This document shows, one piece after another, positions 23,390 through 43,945 of a stretch of DNA of 64,000 bases (position 1 is the first letter of the stretch; each line of letters starts with the position of its first letter). The notes below the pieces were generated by a model that saw only the letters and a program-made list of their open reading frames with translations, searched no databases and was not told the DNA's origin. Made by a program: the position numbers and the translations under genes. This DNA comes from Gluconacetobacter asukensis (GTDB lineage Bacteria; Pseudomonadota; Alphaproteobacteria; Acetobacterales; Acetobacteraceae): contig NZ_JABEQE010000009.1 of the NCBI RefSeq assembly GCF_014174375.1, forward strand, positions 1 through 64,000, written 5' to 3'.

Positions 23390-23476
23390 TGGTGCCCAGA
23401 AGAAGACTCGAACTTCCACGACCTTGCGGCCACAGGTACCTGAAACCTGCGCGTCTACCAATTCCGCCATCTGGGC
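23390..23476 (-). tRNA. tRNA-Leu (anticodon CAG), copy 1
   Basis: 87 nt including an encoded CCA. The acceptor stem GCCCAGA pairs with TCTGGGC; the anticodon stem CAGGT/ACCTG encloses loop TTCAGGT, giving anticodon CAG (reads CUG). The D-loop (AATTGGTAGACGC), long class II variable arm and T-arm GTTCGAGTC are all present. The sequence is identical to copy 2. A T6 run follows the CCA, an apparent terminator. Confidence 0.97.
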
Positions 23477-23667: not shown

Positions 23668-23754
23668 TGGTGCCCAGAAGAAGACTCGAACTTCCACGAC
23701 CTTGCGGCCACAGGTACCTGAAACCTGCGCGTCTACCAATTCCGCCATCTGGGC
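23668..23754 (-). tRNA. tRNA-Leu (anticodon CAG), copy 2
   Basis: 87 nt with encoded CCA, identical in all positions to copy 1, 278 bp away on the same strand. It lacks the T6 run immediately after the CCA that copy 1 has, so transcription could continue into copy 1. CUG is the dominant leucine codon in this GC-rich window, which explains a high gene dose. Confidence 0.97.
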
Positions 23755-31263: not shown

Positions 31264-33102
31264 ATGCCGAAGCTGAATCTTGCCTCTGGCCCGATGGATC
31301 ACAGCCCCTTGCGGGCCGCCGATGGGGGCGCGCCGGTGGGCGCGGTCGGGGAGCTGCCGCGCTGGGACCTGCGGGACCTGTATGAAAGCCCCGAATCGGA
31401 TGCGCTGCGCACCGATCTGGAGCAGGCCGAATCCGACGCCGCCGCCTTTGCCGCCGCCTGGAAGGGGCGGTTGGCCGGGGCTGCGCCCGGCGAGCTGGCC
31501 GAGGCGATCGGGGAATATCAGCGGATCGACGAGGTGCTGGGCCGGGCGGCGTCCTACGCGCAATTGCTGTTTGCCGGCGATTCGTCGGATGCCGGGATCG
31601 GGCGGTTCTCGCAGTCGATCAACGAGCGGCTGACGGATATTTCCAGCCATCTGCTGTTCTTTACCCTGGAGCTGAACCGGATCGGGGAGGAGGAGCTTTC
31701 CGCCCGTCTGGCTGACCCGGCGCTGGCGGTGTGGATGCCGTTCCTGCGTGACCTGCGGGTCTTCCGGCCGCATCAGTTGAGTGACGAGATCGAGCAGGTC
31801 CTGCACGAGAAATCGGTGACCGGGGCCTCGGCCTGGAGCCGTCTGTTCGACGAGACGATGGCCGGGCTGCGCATTCCGCTGGATGGGCGGGACCTGACGG
31901 TGGGGGAGGCGCTGAACCGCCTGTCGGACCAGGACCGTGCGGTGCGCGAGCGGGCGGCGAAGGCGATCGGCAGCGTGTTTGGCGGCAATATCAAGCTGTT
32001 CTCGCTGATCACCAACACGCTGGCCAAGGACAAGGCGATTACCGACTCGCTGCGGCATTATCCGCGCCCGGGGTCCTACCGCAATCGCAGCAACATGGTG
32101 GAGGACGAGGTCGTCGACGCGCTGGTGCAGGCGGTGACGGAGGATTATCCGCGCCTGTCGCATCGCTATTACGCGATGAAGGCGCGCTGGCTGGGGCTGG
32201 AGAAGCTGGAACATTGGGACCGCAATGCCCCGCTGCCGGCGGCGGACGAGCGGGTCATTCCGTGGGACGAGGCGACGCGGCAGGTGCTGGCGGCCTATGA
32301 AGGGTTCGACCCGCGCATGGGCGCGGTGGCGCGGCGGTTCTTCGACAATCCGTGGATCGATGCGCCCCCGGTGCCGGGCAAGGCGTCAGGCGCGTTCGCG
32401 CACCCCACCGTACCGTCGGTCCACCCGTATCTGCTGCTGAATTATCATGGTCGCACCCGTGATGTGATGACGCTGGCGCATGAGCTGGGCCACGGGGTGC
32501 ACCAGGTGCTGGCGGCGCCGCATGGTTATCTGATGTCGGGCACGCCGCTGACTCTGGCCGAGACGGCCAGCGTGTTCGGCGAGATGCTGACCTTCCGCGC
32601 GCTGCTGGATGCCGAGACCGATCCGGCGCGGCGGCGGCTGATGCTGGCCGCCAAGGTCGAGGACATGCTGAACACGGTCGTGCGCCAGATCGCGTTCTAC
32701 CGGTTCGAGACGCTGGTGCATGACGAGCGGAAATCGGGCGAATTGCTGCCCGAGCGGATCGGCGCCATCTGGCGGCAGGTGCAGACGGAAAGCCTGGGGC
32801 CGGCCTTCAACTTTACGCCGGATTATGACGTGTACTGGACCTATGTCCCGCATTTCATCCATTCTCCGTTCTATGTCTATGCGTATGCATTCGGGGATTG
32901 CCTGGTGAATGCGCTGTATGGCGTGTTCACCTCTGGCCATGCGGGGTTCCAGGACAAATATCTGGACATGCTGCGGGCGGGCGGCACGATGCGGCACCGC
33001 GAATTGCTGGCGCCGTTTGGGCTGGACGCGGCCGATCCGGGTTTCTGGCGCAAGGGGCTGGACGTGATCGCCGGATTTATTGACGAACTGGAGCGTGCCT
33101 GA
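31264..33102 (+). CDS. pepF: M3 family oligoendopeptidase (PepF type)
   Basis: 612-aa zinc metallopeptidase. HEXXH is in TLAHELGHGVH (His406, Glu407, His410), and the third ligand is the glutamate in LAETASVFGEM about 28 residues later. The N-terminal ~200 residues form the helical PepF/M3 lid (WDLRDLY is the family's opening motif). It degrades cytosolic oligopeptides. GGAG is 11 bases before ATG 31264. Its stop overlaps the reading region of the next gene's ribosome site, so the two are co-transcribed. Confidence 0.93.
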   Translation: MPKLNLASGPMDHSPLRAADGGAPVGAVGELPRWDLRDLYESPESDALRTDLEQAESDAAAFAAAWKGRLAGAAPGELAEAIGEYQRIDEVLGRAASYAQLLFAGDSSDAGIGRFSQSINERLTDISSHLLFFTLELNRIGEEELSARLADPALAVWMPFLRDLRVFRPHQLSDEIEQVLHEKSVTGASAWSRLFDETMAGLRIPLDGRDLTVGEALNRLSDQDRAVRERAAKAIGSVFGGNIKLFSLITNTLAKDKAITDSLRHYPRPGSYRNRSNMVEDEVVDALVQAVTEDYPRLSHRYYAMKARWLGLEKLEHWDRNAPLPAADERVIPWDEATRQVLAAYEGFDPRMGAVARRFFDNPWIDAPPVPGKASGAFAHPTVPSVHPYLLLNYHGRTRDVMTLAHELGHGVHQVLAAPHGYLMSGTPLTLAETASVFGEMLTFRALLDAETDPARRRLMLAAKVEDMLNTVVRQIAFYRFETLVHDERKSGELLPERIGAIWRQVQTESLGPAFNFTPDYDVYWTYVPHFIHSPFYVYAYAFGDCLVNALYGVFTSGHAGFQDKYLDMLRAGGTMRHRELLAPFGLDAADPGFWRKGLDVIAGFIDELERA

Positions 33103-33103
33103 C

Positions 33104-34462
33104 GTGGCGGACGAACGGGATCTCGACAATACCGGCATGTTCGGCGAACTGCGCCGGATGGTGCGGACGTCGGGCGCGGTCGGCGGCATCGCCGCGCGCA
33201 TTGCAGGCCACAAGATGGGGCTGCGTACTGATCACGCCACCCATGCCGGTGACCTGAAATCGGTGCTGGGCGGCCTGAAGGGGCCGCTGATGAAGGGCGC
33301 GCAGCTTCTCTCCACCATTCCCGGCGCGCTGCCGGACGAATATGCGGCGGAACTGGCGCAGCTTCAGGCCAATGCGCCGCCGATGGGGTGGAGCTTCGTG
33401 CGCCGACGCATGAGCACCGAACTGGGGCGCGACTGGGAGCGGCGCTTCCGCTCGTTCGAGCATGAGGCCGCTGCGGCCGCCAGCCTGGGGCAGGTGCATC
33501 GGGCGGTGCTGCCGGACGGGCGCCGGGTGGCGTGCAAGCTGCAATATCCGGACATGCAGGCGACGGTGGATTCCGACCTGCGGCAGTTCCGCATGGCGGT
33601 GGGGCTCTATTACCGCATCGACAGCACGATCAAGCAGGATGACGTGCTGGTGGAGCTGACGGCCCGCCTGCAGGAGGAGTTGGACTATCTGCGCGAGGCG
33701 GCGAACCTGCGACTGTACAACCTGATGCTGGCTGAGTGCCCGGATGTCAGCGTGCCGATGCCGGTCGAGGATCTGACGACGCGGCGGCTGCTGGTGATGG
33801 ACTGGCTGGATGGCAGGGGTGTGCAGTCGGTGCTGGATACCGACCCGGCGCAGGAGCAACGCGATTCCATGGCGCGCGCGCTGTTCCATGCCTGGTACGT
33901 GCCGCTCTATCGCAACGGCGTGATCCATGGCGACCCGCATATGGGCAATTTCACGGTGCGGTCGGATTATGGGCTGAACCTGCTGGATCTTGGCGCGATC
34001 CGCATCTTCCCGGCCCGTTTCGTGCAGGGGATCATCGACCTGTATCGCGCGTTGGAGACCAATGACGAGGATCTGGCCTATCATGCCTATCAGGCCTGGG
34101 GCTTTGTGAATATGTCGCGCGAGACCATGCGCGTGCTGAACGAGTGGGCGCGCTTTGTCTACGAACCGCTGATGCAGGACCGCGTGCGCGCGATCCAGGA
34201 GAATGACGACCCGCAATATGGCCGGGCGGTGGCCGAGCGGGTGTATGCCGGCCTGAAACAGACTGGGGGTGTGCGGCCGCCGCGTGAGTTCGTGCTGGTG
34301 GATCGCTCCGCGATCGGTCTGGGCAGCGTGTTCCTGCGGCTGGGGGCGAAGCTGAACTGGTATCGGCTGTTCCAGGAGCTGATTGCCGATTTCGATGCGG
34401 CGAAACTGGCGGCGCGGCAGGAAGAGGTCCTGCGGCAGGCGCGGGTTCCTCCCACGGCCTGA
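33104..34462 (+). CDS. ABC1/UbiB (AarF/COQ8) atypical kinase-like protein
   Basis: 452-aa member of the UbiB family. The alanine-rich nucleotide loop AAAAASLGQVH, catalytic HGDPHMGNF and metal-binding LLDLGAI are present. The N-terminal KxGQ motif, which normally plugs the active site, reads MKGAQLLST: lysine and glutamine kept, glycine replaced by alanine. There is no C-terminal membrane anchor, so this is not the main UbiB of ubiquinone synthesis. GTG 33104 immediately follows the pepF stop and has GGAG ten bases upstream. Confidence 0.88.
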   Translation: MADERDLDNTGMFGELRRMVRTSGAVGGIAARIAGHKMGLRTDHATHAGDLKSVLGGLKGPLMKGAQLLSTIPGALPDEYAAELAQLQANAPPMGWSFVRRRMSTELGRDWERRFRSFEHEAAAAASLGQVHRAVLPDGRRVACKLQYPDMQATVDSDLRQFRMAVGLYYRIDSTIKQDDVLVELTARLQEELDYLREAANLRLYNLMLAECPDVSVPMPVEDLTTRRLLVMDWLDGRGVQSVLDTDPAQEQRDSMARALFHAWYVPLYRNGVIHGDPHMGNFTVRSDYGLNLLDLGAIRIFPARFVQGIIDLYRALETNDEDLAYHAYQAWGFVNMSRETMRVLNEWARFVYEPLMQDRVRAIQENDDPQYGRAVAERVYAGLKQTGGVRPPREFVLVDRSAIGLGSVFLRLGAKLNWYRLFQELIADFDAAKLAARQEEVLRQARVPPTA

Positions 34463-34793: not shown

Positions 34794-36926
34794 ATGCGAC
34801 TCGTAGTCATTGTCGATGACCGTTCGACCAATCGGACCATCTTCGCCCGGCTGGCGGTGACCCTCGGGACCGACATTCGGGTTGAAAGCTTCGCGACGCC
34901 GCAGGAGGCGCTGGACTGGTTCGGGACATCGCCGGTGCCCGATCTGATCATTACGGACTACAAGATGCCCAGGATGGACGGCGCGGCCTTTACCGCCCGT
35001 ATCCGCGCGCTTGACTGGGGATATGACGTGCCGATCGTGGTCGTCACGGCCTATGAGGACCGCAATTACCGGATCAGTGCCCTTGATGCCGGCGCGACCG
35101 ATTTTCTGCTCAGTCCGGTCGATCATACCGAATTCCTGACGCGTGCCCGTAACCTGTTGCAGTTGAGCTGGTACCAGAAGCGGGTGCGTTCGCGCGCCGT
35201 GCAACTGGAAGAAGAGCTGATCAGCAGTCGTCAGGCGCATGACGATCTGCTGCGCGGCAGCCGCGACCGGCTGCTGCAGGTGATCGATACTGTTCCCGCC
35301 ATGATCAGCGCGACGGATATCGACGGAAACTATATCTTTGTTAACAAGTTTCACGAGAGCGTCCTCGGGGGGCAGTCGCGCACGGTCGATGCGGCGTCAT
35401 TGACGCTGGACCGGCAGGTCCTGGAGGGCGGGGTGCCCACGGCCCGTTACGAGGAAACCATTGTCGATCGGCATGGCGTGACATGGAGCCTCCTGACATC
35501 GAAGATTCCGTTTTATGACGATGCGAACGGCAAACATTATGTACTGACCACGTCTCTTGATATAACGGACCGCAAGAAATCCGAAAAGGAGCTGCATAGT
35601 CTTGCATATTACGATCAGCTGACGGGCCTTCCCAATCGATCCAATCTTGAAAAACATACGCAGACGCTTTTGCTGCGGGGCGATGATCGGCCGTTTGCTT
35701 TTTTTCTTCTGGATCTCGATCGTTTTAAAAGTGTCAACGATACGCAGGGTCATACGGTCGGGGACCAGTTGCTGCGCCAGGTTGCGGTGCGGCTGACATC
35801 GATTTTGCCCCGTGCCTGCTTTATCGCCCGTCTGGGTGGTGACGAGTTCGCGATTGTCCACGATATCAGGCGTATGGACGATGCCGGCGAGCTGGCCGAG
35901 CAGATTATTGCGATCTTTGCGTGCCCGTTCACGCTGGGCGATCTGGCGGTGAATGTCGGCGTCAGTGTCGGGATCGCATTAAATTCCGACCCGGCCCTCA
36001 CGTTCGAGACGATGCTGAAACGCGCCGATCTTGCGATGTACCGCGCGAAGAACGAGGGGCGGCATCGATATGCCTTCTTCGAAACGGCGATGGAGCAGGC
36101 CGTCTCTGTCGCGGCCGATCTGGAGCAGGCGCTGCGCCAGGCGATCGAGAGTGGTGCGTTCACGCTGCACTATCAGCCCGAGATCGACCTGGCATCCGGT
36201 CTGGTGACAGGGGTCGAAGCGTTGATCCGGTGGGTGCGGCCGCAGGGGGAGCTTGTCTATCCTGGCCATTTCCTGCCGCTGGCGGAGGAAACCGGCCTGA
36301 TCGTGCCGATGACGGTCTGGTCGTTGCGCGAGGCCTGTCGTCAGGGAGCGGCATGGGTGCGGGAGGGCATCCATATCCGTATGGCGGTCAACCTGTCCGG
36401 CATGTTGTTCCGTTATCATGATGTCCAGCAGATGGTGCTGGATGCCATCACCGAAAGCGGCCTGGACCCGGGTTTCCTGGAGCTGGAACTGACAGAGACG
36501 GCATTGATCGAAAATCCGGAAAAGGCGGGGCGACAACTGGCGGCGTTGCAGCAGATGGGCGTGTCTGTCGCGATCGACGATTTCGGGACCGGCTATGCCT
36601 CTCTCGTCTATCTGACCACATTGCCGATCCACAGGCTGAAGATCGACGCGGTCTTCGTCAGGGAAATCGATTCCTCGTCCAGCAGCCAGGCGATCATCAA
36701 GGCGATCATTGCCCTGGGCAACAATTTGAATATCCCGGTGATTGCGGAGGGCATTGAACGGGAAGATCAGTTGTACTGGTTGAAGGCGCAGGGATGCCAC
36801 CAGGCCCAGGGTTTCCTGTTCAGCCGCCCTGTTCCGCCTGACCAGTTCCGTCACTTGCTGCGAAGTGGTGCCTTGAGCGTGTCGGATGGTCTGACCCCAT
36901 CGGTCGAACGGCCTTCCGGGAATTGA
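34794..36926 (+). CDS. Response regulator with REC-PAS-GGDEF-EAL domains (RpfG-type receiver)
   Basis: 710-aa cytosolic cyclic-di-GMP enzyme. REC (1-~120) has the phospho-acceptor Asp55 (ITDYKMPRMDG); its ALDAGATDFL and RARNLLQL segments closely resemble RpfG. The normally conserved lysine before Pro is Ser107 (FLLSPVD). A coiled linker and PAS (~155-275) follow. GGDEF is intact (348-352) with no RxxD I-site. EAL is intact: EALIRW (Glu475), NLSG, ELELTET, DDFGTGY, KID, AEGIE, QGFLFS. So both cyclase and phosphodiesterase activity are possible. It sits beside RpfC- and RpfF-like genes where RpfG (REC-HD-GYP) would be expected. Confidence 0.95.
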   Translation: MRLVVIVDDRSTNRTIFARLAVTLGTDIRVESFATPQEALDWFGTSPVPDLIITDYKMPRMDGAAFTARIRALDWGYDVPIVVVTAYEDRNYRISALDAGATDFLLSPVDHTEFLTRARNLLQLSWYQKRVRSRAVQLEEELISSRQAHDDLLRGSRDRLLQVIDTVPAMISATDIDGNYIFVNKFHESVLGGQSRTVDAASLTLDRQVLEGGVPTARYEETIVDRHGVTWSLLTSKIPFYDDANGKHYVLTTSLDITDRKKSEKELHSLAYYDQLTGLPNRSNLEKHTQTLLLRGDDRPFAFFLLDLDRFKSVNDTQGHTVGDQLLRQVAVRLTSILPRACFIARLGGDEFAIVHDIRRMDDAGELAEQIIAIFACPFTLGDLAVNVGVSVGIALNSDPALTFETMLKRADLAMYRAKNEGRHRYAFFETAMEQAVSVAADLEQALRQAIESGAFTLHYQPEIDLASGLVTGVEALIRWVRPQGELVYPGHFLPLAEETGLIVPMTVWSLREACRQGAAWVREGIHIRMAVNLSGMLFRYHDVQQMVLDAITESGLDPGFLELELTETALIENPEKAGRQLAALQQMGVSVAIDDFGTGYASLVYLTTLPIHRLKIDAVFVREIDSSSSSQAIIKAIIALGNNLNIPVIAEGIEREDQLYWLKAQGCHQAQGFLFSRPVPPDQFRHLLRSGALSVSDGLTPSVERPSGN

Positions 36927-37011
36927 GATATGGTGAATCATATGCTCATTCCCTGGTTGAGGGGTGTCCGGGCCGTCCGGGTTCCGGATACTGAAGGCAG
37001 GGTGGGTCGAC

Positions 37012-39504
37012 GTGCGTAACCTGCTGGCGCGCATGCGGCGGGGTGGCGACGGCGAGCATCAGATTGTCCTGAACCGGCTGGTGATCGCCGTCATCATTCT
37101 GGTCTATGTCGTCGGACTCTTTCTGGGTGGCGGTTTCGAGGACAGGGATCAGTTTGTCTGGTCGGTTGTATGTGCCGTTCTTTATCTGGCGGGCGGTGTG
37201 GCAATTGCCGCCGCCCTGGTTGCGTGGCCGCGTCCCTCTCCGGCGCGGCGGATCGTCCAGATGATATGGGACATCGGTTTTCTGTCGTTTGGCATGTATC
37301 TCGACGGGGTTGCGGTTATCCCGTTCTATCCGCTCTATCTGTGGGCCATCCTCGGATACGGGTTTCGTTTCGGCCTGCCTTATATTACGGGCGCCGCCTT
37401 TCTGGCCGCCGGCGGGTTCACGCTGGCGGTGCATGCGTTGCCCGTATGGCGGGATGCCGGTCACCTGTTGGCCGGTCTGACGCTTGGTCTGCTGGTTGTC
37501 CCGCTTTATTCGGCGTCACTGATCCGATTCCTGTCCAATCTCAGACGACGTGCGGAGGAAGCCAATCAGGCAAAGACGATGTTCCTGGCCAGCGTCAGTC
37601 ACGAACTGCGCACACCGCTGAATGCCGTGATCGGCATGACGCACCTGCTGAACGACACGGCGCTGGATGCCGAACAGCGCGAGATGCTGCAGACGGTGCG
37701 CGTCGCGGGGACCTCGCTTCTGGGGATGGTCGAGGGGTTGCTGGATTTCGCCCGGATCGAGAACGGACGCATGCCGGTACAGGCACAGCCGGTTGACCTG
37801 ATGGCCCTGCTGAATGCGGTCCGGCGCATTGCGGGGGTGGCGGCGGGGGAAAAGGGCCTGCTTCTGGCCTGTCATGTCACCGCCCGTACGCCGCTATGGC
37901 TGATCGGGGATGAAAAGCACCTGCGGGACGTCTTGCTGAACCTGGTCGGTAATGCGGTCAAATTTACCGACAAAGGACATGTGACCATCCGGGTCGATGC
38001 CCTGCCCGCCGGAAGCGGTGGGCCGGCCCGTCTGGTAATCGAGGTTGTGGATACCGGTATCGGCATCTCGCAGGCTGCGTTGGAACGGATTTTCGACCCG
38101 TTCACCCAGGCGGATGCAACTGTGATCGACCGGTTCGGCGGGTCTGGACTGGGGCTGGCAATCTGCCGCCAGCTGGTCACGCTGATGGGGGGCGAGATCG
38201 GAGTCCGTAGCCGGGAGGGGCATGGCAGTACGTTCCGTGTGACCTTGCCGCTGAGGATCGGGACGGCACCGGGCGGGGAAACCGGGACGGGGCTGCCACC
38301 TGTGCTGCTGTGGGCGCGCCAGCCTGATCGTTATCAGGCGCTGACGGCCCGTTTGACGGCCTTGGGGGCGCGGCTCGCCACTGTTTCACCCAATGAGGGC
38401 GTATCCGACGTTCTGGGGCGGCTGGAGCATCCGCATGTCGTGTTGACCGATATGCCGGACGAGATGCTGCCTTTGCCGGCCGACCTGCCGGTGGTGCTTC
38501 TGCAGCCGTCAGGCGTGGAGGGATCGCTGGCCGAAACGGTGCGGCGCGATAGCGTATCGATGCTTCCCGCCGATGCGGGCGATGGGTGGATTGGGACGGC
38601 GCTGACCGTCGCCGCGGCCTTTTTGCTCCGGGAAGACCCGTCCGATTCGGACTCGGGGGGGCCCGATATGTCTGCCGGCCGTTCGCTCTCGATCCTGGTG
38701 GTCGAGGACAATATCGTGAACCGGAAGATCCTGTGCAGGCTGCTTTCCCGGATCGGGCATCGCTGGCAGGCGGTGGCGAATGGCGAGGAAGCCCTGGATA
38801 TCCTGCAGGAGATGCCATTCGATCTGGTCCTGATGGACCTGAACATGCCGGTCATGAACGGGATCGAGGCGACGAAGCTTCATCGGTTTTCCGAAGTCGG
38901 GGGCGGGAGAGGGATTCCGATCGTCGCGTTGACGGCTGACGGGACGCCCGAGACCCAGAAGCGGTGTCGGGAGGCGGGGATGGATGCTTTCCTGCTCAAG
39001 CCGGTGGCGCTGGAGGCCCTGGTGCAGGCGATCGAGGCGCTGGTGCCTGCTGAGGCGGGTATCCGACATGCGTGCGATCGTCCGTCCGGCGGCGATGAGT
39101 GCCCCAGGCGCGGGGAAGCGACCGTGGTGGTGCCCTTTCCCGTCCCCACCATCAATCGCCGGATGGTGCAGGATCTGCTCGACCTGGGTGGCGAGCGCTT
39201 CCGGGCCGAAGTCATTGGCGATTTTCTGCGGGATGCCGTGGAGATCGTCACGCGGATGGATCACGCGGTGAAAGATGGGGATCGGTCGCGCCTGCTGGAC
39301 GAAGCGCATGCGTTGCGCAGTGCCGCCGCCAATGTCGGAGCGGAGCGTCTGGCGGCCTTATGTCATGAATGGCGGGGCATCCCCCATATGAACGGGCAGG
39401 AAAGGGCGCGGGCCCATCAGGAGGCGATCTGGCTGGAGATGAACGCGGTGGAGGACGCATTGCGGCCGTATACGGTCGTGCCGTTGGCGGACAGCCCGTC
39501 CTAG
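37012..39504 (+). CDS. rpfC: RpfC-like hybrid sensor histidine kinase
   Basis: 830-aa membrane kinase. Five hydrophobic segments (~20-170) form an RpfC-type sensor, including PLYLWAILGYGFRFGLPY, where RpfC has a similar PLY...GNGLRYG block. HisKA phospho-His197 (SVSHELRTPLN), HATPase (NLVGNAVKFT, DTGIGIS, GSGLGLAI), a degenerate receiver (~420-540, no acceptor Asp), a true receiver (Asp609 in LMDLNMP) and an HPt domain (His766 in AHALRSAAANVG) follow. GTG 37012 has AGGGTGG upstream; a GTG at 36964 is also open. In Xanthomonas RpfC senses DSF and phosphorelays to RpfG; the same role is inferred. 85 bp after the REC-GGDEF-EAL gene. Confidence 0.9.
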   Translation: MRNLLARMRRGGDGEHQIVLNRLVIAVIILVYVVGLFLGGGFEDRDQFVWSVVCAVLYLAGGVAIAAALVAWPRPSPARRIVQMIWDIGFLSFGMYLDGVAVIPFYPLYLWAILGYGFRFGLPYITGAAFLAAGGFTLAVHALPVWRDAGHLLAGLTLGLLVVPLYSASLIRFLSNLRRRAEEANQAKTMFLASVSHELRTPLNAVIGMTHLLNDTALDAEQREMLQTVRVAGTSLLGMVEGLLDFARIENGRMPVQAQPVDLMALLNAVRRIAGVAAGEKGLLLACHVTARTPLWLIGDEKHLRDVLLNLVGNAVKFTDKGHVTIRVDALPAGSGGPARLVIEVVDTGIGISQAALERIFDPFTQADATVIDRFGGSGLGLAICRQLVTLMGGEIGVRSREGHGSTFRVTLPLRIGTAPGGETGTGLPPVLLWARQPDRYQALTARLTALGARLATVSPNEGVSDVLGRLEHPHVVLTDMPDEMLPLPADLPVVLLQPSGVEGSLAETVRRDSVSMLPADAGDGWIGTALTVAAAFLLREDPSDSDSGGPDMSAGRSLSILVVEDNIVNRKILCRLLSRIGHRWQAVANGEEALDILQEMPFDLVLMDLNMPVMNGIEATKLHRFSEVGGGRGIPIVALTADGTPETQKRCREAGMDAFLLKPVALEALVQAIEALVPAEAGIRHACDRPSGGDECPRRGEATVVVPFPVPTINRRMVQDLLDLGGERFRAEVIGDFLRDAVEIVTRMDHAVKDGDRSRLLDEAHALRSAAANVGAERLAALCHEWRGIPHMNGQERARAHQEAIWLEMNAVEDALRPYTVVPLADSPS

Positions 39505-39513
39505 AGGCTGCCC

Positions 39514-39553
39514 GGAGCGTTTTCAAAAGGCGGGTGCCTGATGAGAACGCTCC
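39514..39553. terminator. Bidirectional terminator between rpfC and rpfF
   Basis: GGAGCGTTTTC (39514-39524) pairs with GAGAACGCTCC (39543-39553) with one mismatch. It lies between convergent genes; A/T-rich bases occur at both stem bases. Confidence 0.6.
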
Positions 39554-39567
39554 GGTATCCTGTTCGG

Positions 39568-40542
39568 TTAGCTGGCGACGCTTTCCGGTCGCGGTGTGCC
39601 GATGCGCCGGTTCTGGGCGCTGACCAGCCGCATCATCTTGCGCAGGTCGGCTTCGGTGAGCTTCAGCGCGGCGTCCACCCAGATATCGGTAATGTCGCGC
39701 AGTTCCTGATGGCTGATCGGATTGACCAGGCGCTTGATGCGCTGGATCGCGTCATGCGCGTTATGACGCCTGTCGATCCGGGCCAGATGTTCGCAGACGG
39801 CAGATTCGCCTTCCCCCGTTTCGGCGACAGCGTCGACGATCCCCATCTCGTGCAATTCCGTCGCCGTGTAGGTCTGGCCACTGAGGATGATTTTTTCGGC
39901 TATGCGGGGATTGAGGCGCCGCGACAGGAGTGTGTATGCGCCCATGCCGGGGAACAGGTTGAACAGGATTTCCGGCAGGCCGAACTTGGCGTGTTTTTCG
40001 GCAATGATGACGTCGCACGACAAGGCGGCTTCGAACCCGCCGCCGAGTGCGTCGCCTTGCACCAGCGCGACGGTGGTCAGGCAATGGCCGTAGCCGTCAG
40101 CGTTGGCGAAGACCACGTCGACGCAATGATAGGCATAGCGGCGCAGGCCGTTTCGGTCGCCCTGCATGATTTTCTCGGCGAACAAGGAAAGATCACCGCC
40201 GAGATTGAAGATGCCGGGAACCCGTGACCCCACGACGATATGCCGGAACGGCAGGGCGCCATCCGTTTGCTGTGCCAGGTGGTGGATGTTCTGTTGCACG
40301 GTGTGCAGATCGCGCAGCAGGGGAGGAGAGAAGCTGGGGCGGCCGCCGGGCCGCATGAAGGTCCATAATGTCTGCGCGGCCTGATCGAGCCGGATGTCCA
40401 CGGTGGGCAGGCTGTCCAGCGAGGGGGATGATGTCTGGCCGAAGACCGCGTGCTGCGGGTCGCGCGCGTTGTCTGGCGCCAGATGGGACGGGTTGAAGGG
40501 CGAGGCGGGCGCGACGGCTCGAAGGCTGGATTTCAGTGACAT
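39568..40542 (-). CDS. rpfF: RpfF-like DSF synthase (crotonase family)
   Basis: 324-aa enoyl-CoA hydratase/thioesterase-type enzyme that in Xanthomonas makes the cis-2-unsaturated fatty acid signal DSF. It aligns by eye with RpfF throughout the core: VPGIFNLGGDL, VQGDALGGGFEAALS and GLPEILFNLFPGMGAY. The two catalytic glutamates, Glu171 (GGGFEAALS) and Glu191 (PEILFN), are 20 residues apart, exactly as Glu141 and Glu161 in RpfF. The N terminus has about 30 extra residues. AGGAG lies 6 bases upstream of the ATG. Convergent with rpfC. Confidence 0.93.
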   Translation of the reverse strand: MSLKSSLRAVAPASPFNPSHLAPDNARDPQHAVFGQTSSPSLDSLPTVDIRLDQAAQTLWTFMRPGGRPSFSPPLLRDLHTVQQNIHHLAQQTDGALPFRHIVVGSRVPGIFNLGGDLSLFAEKIMQGDRNGLRRYAYHCVDVVFANADGYGHCLTTVALVQGDALGGGFEAALSCDVIIAEKHAKFGLPEILFNLFPGMGAYTLLSRRLNPRIAEKIILSGQTYTATELHEMGIVDAVAETGEGESAVCEHLARIDRRHNAHDAIQRIKRLVNPISHQELRDITDIWVDAALKLTEADLRKMMRLVSAQNRRIGTPRPESVAS

Positions 40543-40786: not shown

Positions 40787-41590
40787 TCAGCCTGGGGGGA
40801 AAGGCAGGGACAGTTGCCGCATGAGGGCAGGGATGCCGTCCGGCATGGCGCGTCGGGCGCGTTCGAAGCGCAGGGTAAAGGCCAGGTCGGGACCGGGCTG
40901 GTGGGGGCTCGCCAGCAACCGCTCCAGATCGTCGGTGGCCAGGCCCCGGATGCGTCGCCCGCGCAGGGGGCCGTGGGGCACCTTCACCAGCAGTGCCGGC
41001 TGGCGCGACCATTGCAGCAAGTCCTCGACCGAGGCCAGCGCCAGCATGTCGCGCAGATGGTGGGCCGTCACATAGGCGTCGGGGCCGGCGCGATGGGCGG
41101 GGTTGCCCAGATGCTTCTCCAGCCCGGCCGGGCGGCGGGAATAGCGCAGCCCCTGGTTGGAGTGGCCGGGCTCGTCCGGCCACAGGCGTAGCGCGCATTT
41201 ATAGGTGCAGATCCATCCGGTGCCGGCCATCAGCGTGGGCGGCAGGTGGGCGCGTAGCCAGCCTTGTTCGAAGCTGGCGCGGTGCGCGGCGAAGGCAAGC
41301 GGGCGGGCCGGTGGGCGCAGGATGTCGGGCGCGATGGTCGTGATGGGCGGCGCGTCGCGCACGTCCTGGTCGGTAATGTGGTGGATGGAAGTGGTCCAGG
41401 GCGCGATCGGGCCGCCGGGGTGGGTCAGCTGTGCGCGGGGGCCGTCCGCCAGTTGCCAGCCGTCCGGGGCGTGTGCCACGTCCTGCCAGCCGATTTCGAC
41501 GATTCCGCCACGCGTGGCGTCGCGGTCGCTGGTTTCCAGGTCGATGACGCGGACATAGGGTGTGGATTGGGGGGACAGGGTGCCGTCCAT
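40787..41590 (-). CDS. DEDDh-type 3'-5' exonuclease (ExoX/DnaQ-like)
   Basis: 267-aa nuclease. Motif I is VIDLETSD (Asp, Glu); motif III is the H...D pair in HRAGPDAYVTAHHL. Motif II, usually HNAxFD, reads AHRASFEQ, with Glu in place of the metal-binding Asp. The ~75-residue C-terminal part (HGPLRGRRIRGL) resembles the tail of exodeoxyribonuclease X. It is probably a DNA-repair or nucleic-acid turnover enzyme. Divergent from uvrB (starts 121 bp apart). Confidence 0.85.
   Translation of the reverse strand: MDGTLSPQSTPYVRVIDLETSDRDATRGGIVEIGWQDVAHAPDGWQLADGPRAQLTHPGGPIAPWTTSIHHITDQDVRDAPPITTIAPDILRPPARPLAFAAHRASFEQGWLRAHLPPTLMAGTGWICTYKCALRLWPDEPGHSNQGLRYSRRPAGLEKHLGNPAHRAGPDAYVTAHHLRDMLALASVEDLLQWSRQPALLVKVPHGPLRGRRIRGLATDDLERLLASPHQPGPDLAFTLRFERARRAMPDGIPALMRQLSLPFPPG

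Positions 41591-41710: not shown

Positions 41711-43945
<2,235 letters not shown>

Follow-up and report, generated by a model that had tools for sequence, protein, structure and literature searches.

Two core pathways have been described for signalling by the diffusible signal factor (DSF), RpfC-RpfG and RpfR, and no alphaproteobacterial pathway was named in the accessible portion of that source (PMC4504480). In this work, a 64,000-nucleotide stretch of the Gluconacetobacter asukensis genome (contig NZ_JABEQE010000009.1, positions 1 to 64,000, hereafter the window) was analysed, in which a first-pass annotation made from the sequence alone had pointed out a DSF-type locus of three genes. All three open reading frames, with the domains assigned to them, were borne out by the reading frame list and by Pfam. 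The first encoded REG, a response regulator of 710 residues in the rpfG position with a REC-PAS_4-GGDEF-EAL architecture (34794-36926, + strand; reading frame, Pfam, receiver tree). It was followed after 37 bases by KIN, an RpfC-type hybrid kinase of 846 residues with a GTG start (36964-39504, + strand), and, after a further 63 bases, by the gene of RpfF, a putative DSF-type synthase of 324 residues (39568-40542, - strand). The gene order was rpfG-rpfC><rpfF, with rpfF convergent on the other two, as in Xanthomonas.

The locus resembled the Xanthomonas RpfF-RpfC-RpfG system in gene order, synthase, kinase architecture and the clade of the regulator receiver. It differed from that system in having a PAS-GGDEF-EAL output rather than HD-GYP, a serine in place of the beta-5 lysine of the receiver, and three of five sensor residues changed. 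The RpfF-RpfR system of Burkholderia and Cronobacter shared with it the PAS-GGDEF-EAL string and the presumed breakdown of cyclic di-GMP (c-di-GMP) upon signal. Unlike RpfR, however, REG had a receiver instead of the FI domain, a PAS_4 instead of a PAS9 domain, no ligand signature and a separate GGDEF-EAL clade, with a kinase standing between it and the synthase. The PAS_4 class was also that of RpfS, a Xanthomonas kinase reported to bind DSF; the likeness noted is one of PAS class, and REG is a response regulator whereas RpfS is a kinase. A DSF locus outside the xanthomonads, rpfFCG, is known from Leptospirillum, but its output is HD-GYP and its genes all run in one direction, according to the accessible part of PMC8357829.

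Taken as a whole, the three genes were best explained as a DSF-type locus in which an RpfC-type relay leads to REG and its EAL output lowers c-di-GMP, an account that we regard as fairly probable. The membrane end of KIN would sense a DSF-type signal or an acid related to it, and phosphate would then pass from His213 through Asp625 and His782 to Asp55 of REG; these domains and residues were all observed. Through a long helix the phosphorylation signal would reach the output of REG, where it would most likely raise the EAL phosphodiesterase activity, so that c-di-GMP would fall. The GGDEF domain would probably be either a cyclase of low activity or a module by which GTP tunes the EAL domain, and the PAS would serve for a third input or for dimerisation, with no RpfR-type signal pocket. 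The probable main target would be cellulose synthase. In other lineages the RpfG position is filled by HD-GYP, by HisKA, or by a REC-PAS with no further domain, next to an HWE kinase gene.

The synthase was assigned by its predicted fold, its place in a tree and its conserved glutamates, by all of which the window protein is a genuine RpfF of predicted DSF-type synthase activity. Glu171 and Glu191, which the first-pass annotation had taken for the catalytic pair, were found 20 residues apart and were invariant in 14 of 14 aligned RpfF rows. The best four PDB sequence matches were 3m6m, 6dgn and 5fus, named RpfF or of that family, and 7zq7, titled RpF-1. In the NCBIfam scan the protein passed the cut-off of PRK08788, a crotonase family (370 vs 177 bits), and scored 244 bits against the RpfF equivalog NF053515, under its cut-off of 550. 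The predicted model had a mean predicted local distance difference test score of 84, with values under 50 for residues 1-39. When it was used for a fold search, the 12 best PDB matches were all RpfF/DfsA chains (E 3e-28 to 2e-24, target TM-score 0.87-0.94), and other crotonases, including P. aeruginosa DspI, came only from E 1e-15 onward, nine orders of magnitude behind. A quick-search tree of 135 rows, which omitted L031-L034 as duplicates as well as L044, L101, L102 and L123, separated 127 RpfF rows from 8 other crotonases, of which the window genome encodes two (98 in the SH-like approximate likelihood ratio test). The identity of an ordinary enoyl-CoA hydratase was ruled out by the fold matches and the tree. 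The RpfF proteins of G. aggeris and G. tumulicola were 97% identical to that of the window. An RpfF-like gene was also observed in Aquimarina algiphila of the Bacteroidota (L043; 42% identity over residues 98-313), and in G088 (L102) rpfF was broken into two overlapping frames, with the kinase and the REC-PAS gene still there.

KIN had the architecture of RpfC, namely a transmembrane sensor followed by HisKA, HATPase_c, Response_reg and Hpt (all recognized by Pfam), and was convergent with rpfF; the assignment as an RpfC-like kinase thus held. Among PDB sequences the receiver (38692-39036, + strand, Asp625) was matched best by the Xanthomonas RpfC receiver in the RpfF-RpfC complex (3m6m_D, E 1e-24), and the HPt domain with His782 was located by Pfam and alignment at 39208-39378 (+ strand). 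Among 88 aligned kinases, His213 and the HPt His782 were conserved in all and the receiver Asp625 in 87. Five transmembrane helices had been proposed, but the hydropathy scan gave four; three of four comparison kinases had four or five and the remaining one (L081) had two. The NCBIfam scan of KIN yielded no model over its cut-off among the best 25 matches. RpfC-type kinases with two receivers ahead of the HPt domain were observed at L132, L134, L135, L137, L140, L143, L157-L159 and L161-L164, where no REC-HD-GYP gene was present in the stretch fetched.

The receiver of REG (34803-35144, + strand; Response_reg at residues 4-117) carried the phospho-acceptor Asp55. Its origin was examined in a tree of 95 receivers hand-picked for spread, which took 44 of 75 RpfG-position receivers and 12 of 73 kinase receivers together with 27 other receivers of the window genome, three from unlinked HD-GYP regulators and nine others. 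The 44 were labelled REC-PAS-GGDEF-EAL (23), REC-HD-GYP (8), REC-PAS-HisKA (8) and REC-PAS (5, one of which, L111, was REC-PAS-HisKA_2 by Pfam), and the window receiver entered through L045, whose REC-PAS part is identical. All 44 fell into one clade whatever their output (support 100/99; 999 of 1000 bootstraps), from which the 27 other window-genome receivers and the three unlinked HD-GYP regulators were excluded, so the receiver is common and the output differs. The first-pass reading, in which a receiver of RpfG type is joined to an output other than HD-GYP, was thereby upheld, and HD_5, the HD-GYP model, had no match in REG or in the whole genome at E 0.001. Within this clade the receivers with outputs other than HD-GYP formed a nested clade (100/95). 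The output labels were scattered over the tree, REC-PAS-GGDEF-EAL needing four changes; this fits repeated exchange of outputs but equally the small number of alignment columns, and the bootstrap of this careful tree was not fully converged.

The output part of REG comprised PAS_4 (35286-35576; residues 165-261), GGDEF (35604-36068; residues 271-425) and EAL (36126-36830; residues 445-679), all on the + strand. In the predicted model a helix of 56 residues (111-166) linked REC to PAS. The NCBIfam scan gave only the general GGDEF domain model over its cut-off among the best 25 matches. The GGDEF motif was present at residue 348, and the checked catalytic residues of the EAL domain were intact. 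The latter were invariant in 41 of 41 such regulators, while the GG of GGDEF was lost in four of the 41, a pattern that favours a phosphodiesterase output. The RxxD I-site had its arginine in 20 and its aspartate in 26 of these proteins (both in 20), and REG itself had neither. It had been suggested that REG might both make and degrade c-di-GMP, which stays possible by motif; strict conservation was found in the EAL domain only. The likely output of REG, as judged from these residues, is c-di-GMP breakdown, and the conservation favours a chemistry that would equal that of RpfG by way of an unrelated domain. The window genome had nine EAL matches and a single PilZ match, the latter within the frame of a fused BcsA-BcsB cellulose synthase, which strengthened the earlier suggestion of cellulose synthesis as the output and made this enzyme the presumed target.

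The first-pass annotation had further called this output RpfR-like, and this part was contradicted. The RpfR PAS domain contacts the fatty acid through S169, N172, Y183, R187 and N202 and is preceded by an N-terminal FI domain (accessible part of PMC6361424), and it has been reported as PAS9 (accessible part of PMC8846402). The spacing pattern of these contacts was found in none of 45 REC-PAS-GGDEF-EAL regulators vs six of eight PAS-GGDEF-EAL comparators; one of the two comparators lacking it (L138) was not convergent with rpfF, and one of the eight comparators matched the solved RpfR PAS over its full length with 215 bits. At residues 4-117 REG had its receiver where RpfR has the FI domain. 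In a quick-search tree of GGDEF-EAL regions, which took 33 of the 45 regulators, 32 of the 33 formed one clade (98) and the seven convergent RpfR proteins another (100), with eight other GGDEF-EAL proteins of the window genome outside both. The fork joining the two clades had a support of 80, which makes it possible, as a weak signal, that the two groups are closer to each other than to other GGDEF-EAL proteins.

It had also been proposed that the locus merges both known schemes, REG taking phosphate from RpfC and at the same time binding DSF directly with a PAS domain that works as in RpfR. The RpfC/RpfG side of this proposal was sustained by the partner genes and the receiver clade, while the RpfR-like side was not. 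A merged scheme could draw on the presence of PAS_4 in REG, on the PAS_4 domain of Xanthomonas RpfS that is reported to bind DSF (accessible part of PMC4504480) and on the fact that PAS is common to regulators with different outputs. It was countered by the missing contact signature, by the matches of the isolated PAS among PDB sequences, which were eight, all weak and unrelated, with no RpfR even at E 10, and by a PAS shortened by approximately 13 residues relative to the regulators of other genera (Pfam, alignment, model), as in most of the genus. The PAS_4 call itself was barely over its cut-off (24.0 vs 23.1 bits), no single stretch passing alone, and the fold search with the REC-PAS model gave receivers and REC-bearing proteins among the best 50 matches, leaving the PAS unplaced. 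On the absent ligand signature and the PAS class, sensing of the RpfR type by this domain of REG was rejected, and the merged scheme as a whole was considered decidedly unlikely. Overall, the observation made in the first pass was confirmed and its interpretation partly supported.

The distribution of the locus was examined in genome samples. With the window genome counted each time, RpfF occurred in 51 of the 200 genomes of the family and in 9 of the 14 of the genus; the class sample gave 26 of 386 and the phylum sample 59 of 397. Domain labels were given by our own profiles, built from the same loci that were labelled, with Pfam checks on 5, 6 and 10 proteins. Among 58 rpfF places of the genus and family, 30 had the kinase with REC-PAS-GGDEF-EAL, two the regulator alone, seven the kinase and REC-PAS with a separate gene, four the kinase alone and 15 neither; none had REC-HD-GYP. 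The places with neither include loci near a contig end and L078, with a kinase truncated at the end of its contig. At 31 places elsewhere in the class the corresponding genes were REC-PAS-HisKA (15), REC-PAS-GGDEF-EAL (5), one labelled REC-PAS (HisKA_2 by Pfam), GGDEF-EAL without a receiver (3) and neither (7). Outside the class, where 31 of 50 places were fetched, seven REC-HD-GYP, eight PAS-GGDEF-EAL (seven convergent with rpfF like RpfR), 14 kinases alone and two with neither were recorded. The Pfam checks recovered REC-HD_5 in a Rhodanobacteraceae locus and HD_5 at seven other REC-HD-GYP loci, and they showed the architecture REC-PAS_4-GGDEF-EAL for Hansschlegelia, Lutibaculum and G. johannae. 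Five other alphaproteobacterial loci had REC-PAS-HisKA, four of them with HATPase. In L087, where both genes were scanned, a REC-PAS_4 gene stood ahead of a separate gene for a PAS-HWE kinase, and in L094 the HWE gene was likewise recognized. Regulator, kinase and rpfF stood together in 68 loci (named duplicates excluded), 62 of them ordered regulator-kinase><rpfF. A chance neighbourhood was ruled out by this recurrence and by the co-occurrence of the genes.

The arrangement is family-wide with several interchangeable outputs, which lay beyond the reach of a reading of one sequence. We proposed that the RpfG position is a socket, in which one receiver, fed by RpfC and tied to RpfF, would carry at least four outputs (HD-GYP, PAS-GGDEF-EAL, PAS-HisKA, and REC-PAS with an HWE kinase); the chances for and against this proposal appear evenly balanced to us. 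If it is true, DSF-type signalling would be common in Alphaproteobacteria, acting in Acetobacteraceae on c-di-GMP through a non-homologous phosphodiesterase and elsewhere feeding kinase-to-kinase cascades.

Three further arrangements were observed among these loci. REC-PAS-HisKA occupied the RpfG position near RpfC and RpfF at L104-L110, L112-L115, L117-L119 and L121 of the class, which suggests that a second kinase may act downstream of RpfC there. At L087, L088, L090, L092, L094, L095 and L102 a REC-PAS without output adjoined a separate PAS gene, the HWE assignment being Pfam-confirmed in L087 and L094 only. The alphaproteobacterial loci L036, L131 and L144 had a receiver-less GGDEF-EAL beside rpfF and no RpfC-type kinase in the stretch, and PAS_7 was detected in both of the loci that were scanned, L036 and L131.

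Within the genus the locus is gained or lost as one unit. The trio lay between an ABC1-type kinase gene and an exonuclease-like gene, as in the window, in three relatives (G940, G934, G938), whereas in G042, G937, G174, G939 and G123 the two flanking genes were 40 to approximately 350 bases apart with no trio between them. RpfF was absent genome-wide from G042, G937 and G174, and the trio was at another site in G941, G943, G123, G935 and G939. The trio of G939 (L052) was divergent, with 51% identity in RpfF, and its RpfF grouped with other genera, which suggests horizontal gain. Over 60 loci (L031-L034, L102 and L106 omitted) the divergence of the regulator receiver correlated with that of the kinase REC (r = 0.76) and HPt (0.73), the transmembrane part and RpfF giving 0.59 and 0.62. 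The partial correlations given RpfF were 0.58 for the kinase REC, 0.56 for HPt, 0.40 for HisKA-HATPase and 0.34 for the transmembrane part, none of which was reached in 999 permutations. These distances are consistent with a phosphorelay pair and are no proof of one.

Several observations weighed against the explanation of the locus as a DSF-responsive relay to an EAL output. Two of 32 genus and family places with this regulator have the kinase on another contig, 15 of 58 lack both kinase and regulator in the stretch fetched (some near a contig end), and six of the 68 complete loci are ordered otherwise (L053, L054, L057, L060, L092, L106). The shortening of the PAS described above belongs here as well. 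Further points concern the sensor of KIN and the receiver of REG. In Xanthomonas, R15, D17, S18, E19 and Q22 of the 22-residue RpfC sensor are required for DSF, Thr being the sole tolerated substitute at position 18 and others weakening sensing (accessible part of PMC5391125). The aligned segment of KIN (37042-37065, + strand; GGDGEHQI for residues 15-22) had G, D, G, E and I at these positions, so that D17 and E19, two of five, were kept and a Gly stood at position 18; the comparison uses Xanthomonas residues, and homologues elsewhere vary too. In the REG receiver, Ser107 stood where the beta-5 Lys is usual, and this lysine was Ser, Thr or Ala in 23 of 23 REC-PAS-GGDEF-EAL receivers of the tree.

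The sensor of KIN, with two sensing residues kept and position 22 differing by locus type, is homologous yet altered, and its ligand may differ. Position 22 was Gln in eight of eight kinases of HD-GYP loci vs Met (21), Ile (14), Gln (2) or Thr (1) in 38 kinases of REC-PAS-GGDEF-EAL loci. The three changed residues and the replacement of Gln22 in 36 of these 38 kinases would suit a two-component c-di-GMP switch deaf to DSF. KIN would then respond to some other cue, and RpfF would either be held back by the receiver of the kinase or supply other species with a fatty acid. Such a switch was judged unlikely: of the 200 family genomes, 52 had the RpfC sensor region and 48 of these also had RpfF (Fisher p 1e-37), leaving three genomes with RpfF alone and four with the sensor region alone, Glu19 was present in 85 of 88 kinases with Asp in the other three, and the trio appears and vanishes as a unit in the genus.

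The loss of the beta-5 lysine means that the phospho-switch of REG may differ from the usual one, being unusual or weak. Among the 36 RpfG-position receivers of the tree with outputs other than HD-GYP, the residue was Ser in 32, Thr in three and Ala in one, whereas Lys was found in seven of eight HD-GYP ones and in 25 of 27 other window-genome receivers. This complete loss could indicate that REG acts without phosphorylation, its receiver serving to bind another protein such as KIN or RpfF. Such a role was considered quite improbable, given that Asp8, Asp9, Asp55 and Thr85 were invariant in 41 of 41 regulators and the HPt His in 88 of 88 kinases. Phosphorylation of REG is plausible from these residues.

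In the literature search, no report of a DSF locus with this regulator was found among the top matches, most subscription journals and all preprints lying outside its scope. The accessible parts of the sources describe DSF systems of Leptospirillum and Acidithiobacillus in an acidophile survey (PMC9040811), name DSF only within a list of signal classes in a review of acetic acid bacteria (PMC7889782) and name no alphaproteobacterial Rpf locus (PMC10304161, PMC4698668, PMC10972369). A third DSF arrangement, widely shared in the family to which the acetic acid bacteria belong, would bring industrially relevant bacteria into the range of DSF signalling and would show a quorum-sensing phosphorelay retaining its receiver while swapping its output enzyme. 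The data suggest a widespread, exchangeable signalling device, and the natural series of outputs lets the specificity of kinase-regulator pairing be probed.

The window genome was 99.74% complete in 64 contigs. In the window, the ABC1-type kinase gene (33080-34462) lay upstream of REG, and the exonuclease-like gene (40787-41590, - strand), with scores under the Pfam and NCBIfam cut-offs, lay beyond RpfF. It was followed by a frame of 744 residues (41711-43945), which is putatively uvrB. A promoter and terminator scan was uninformative, the sites being no more numerous than in shuffled sequence. Two tandem tRNA-Leu(cag) genes were also observed on the - strand of the window (23390-23476 and 23668-23754).

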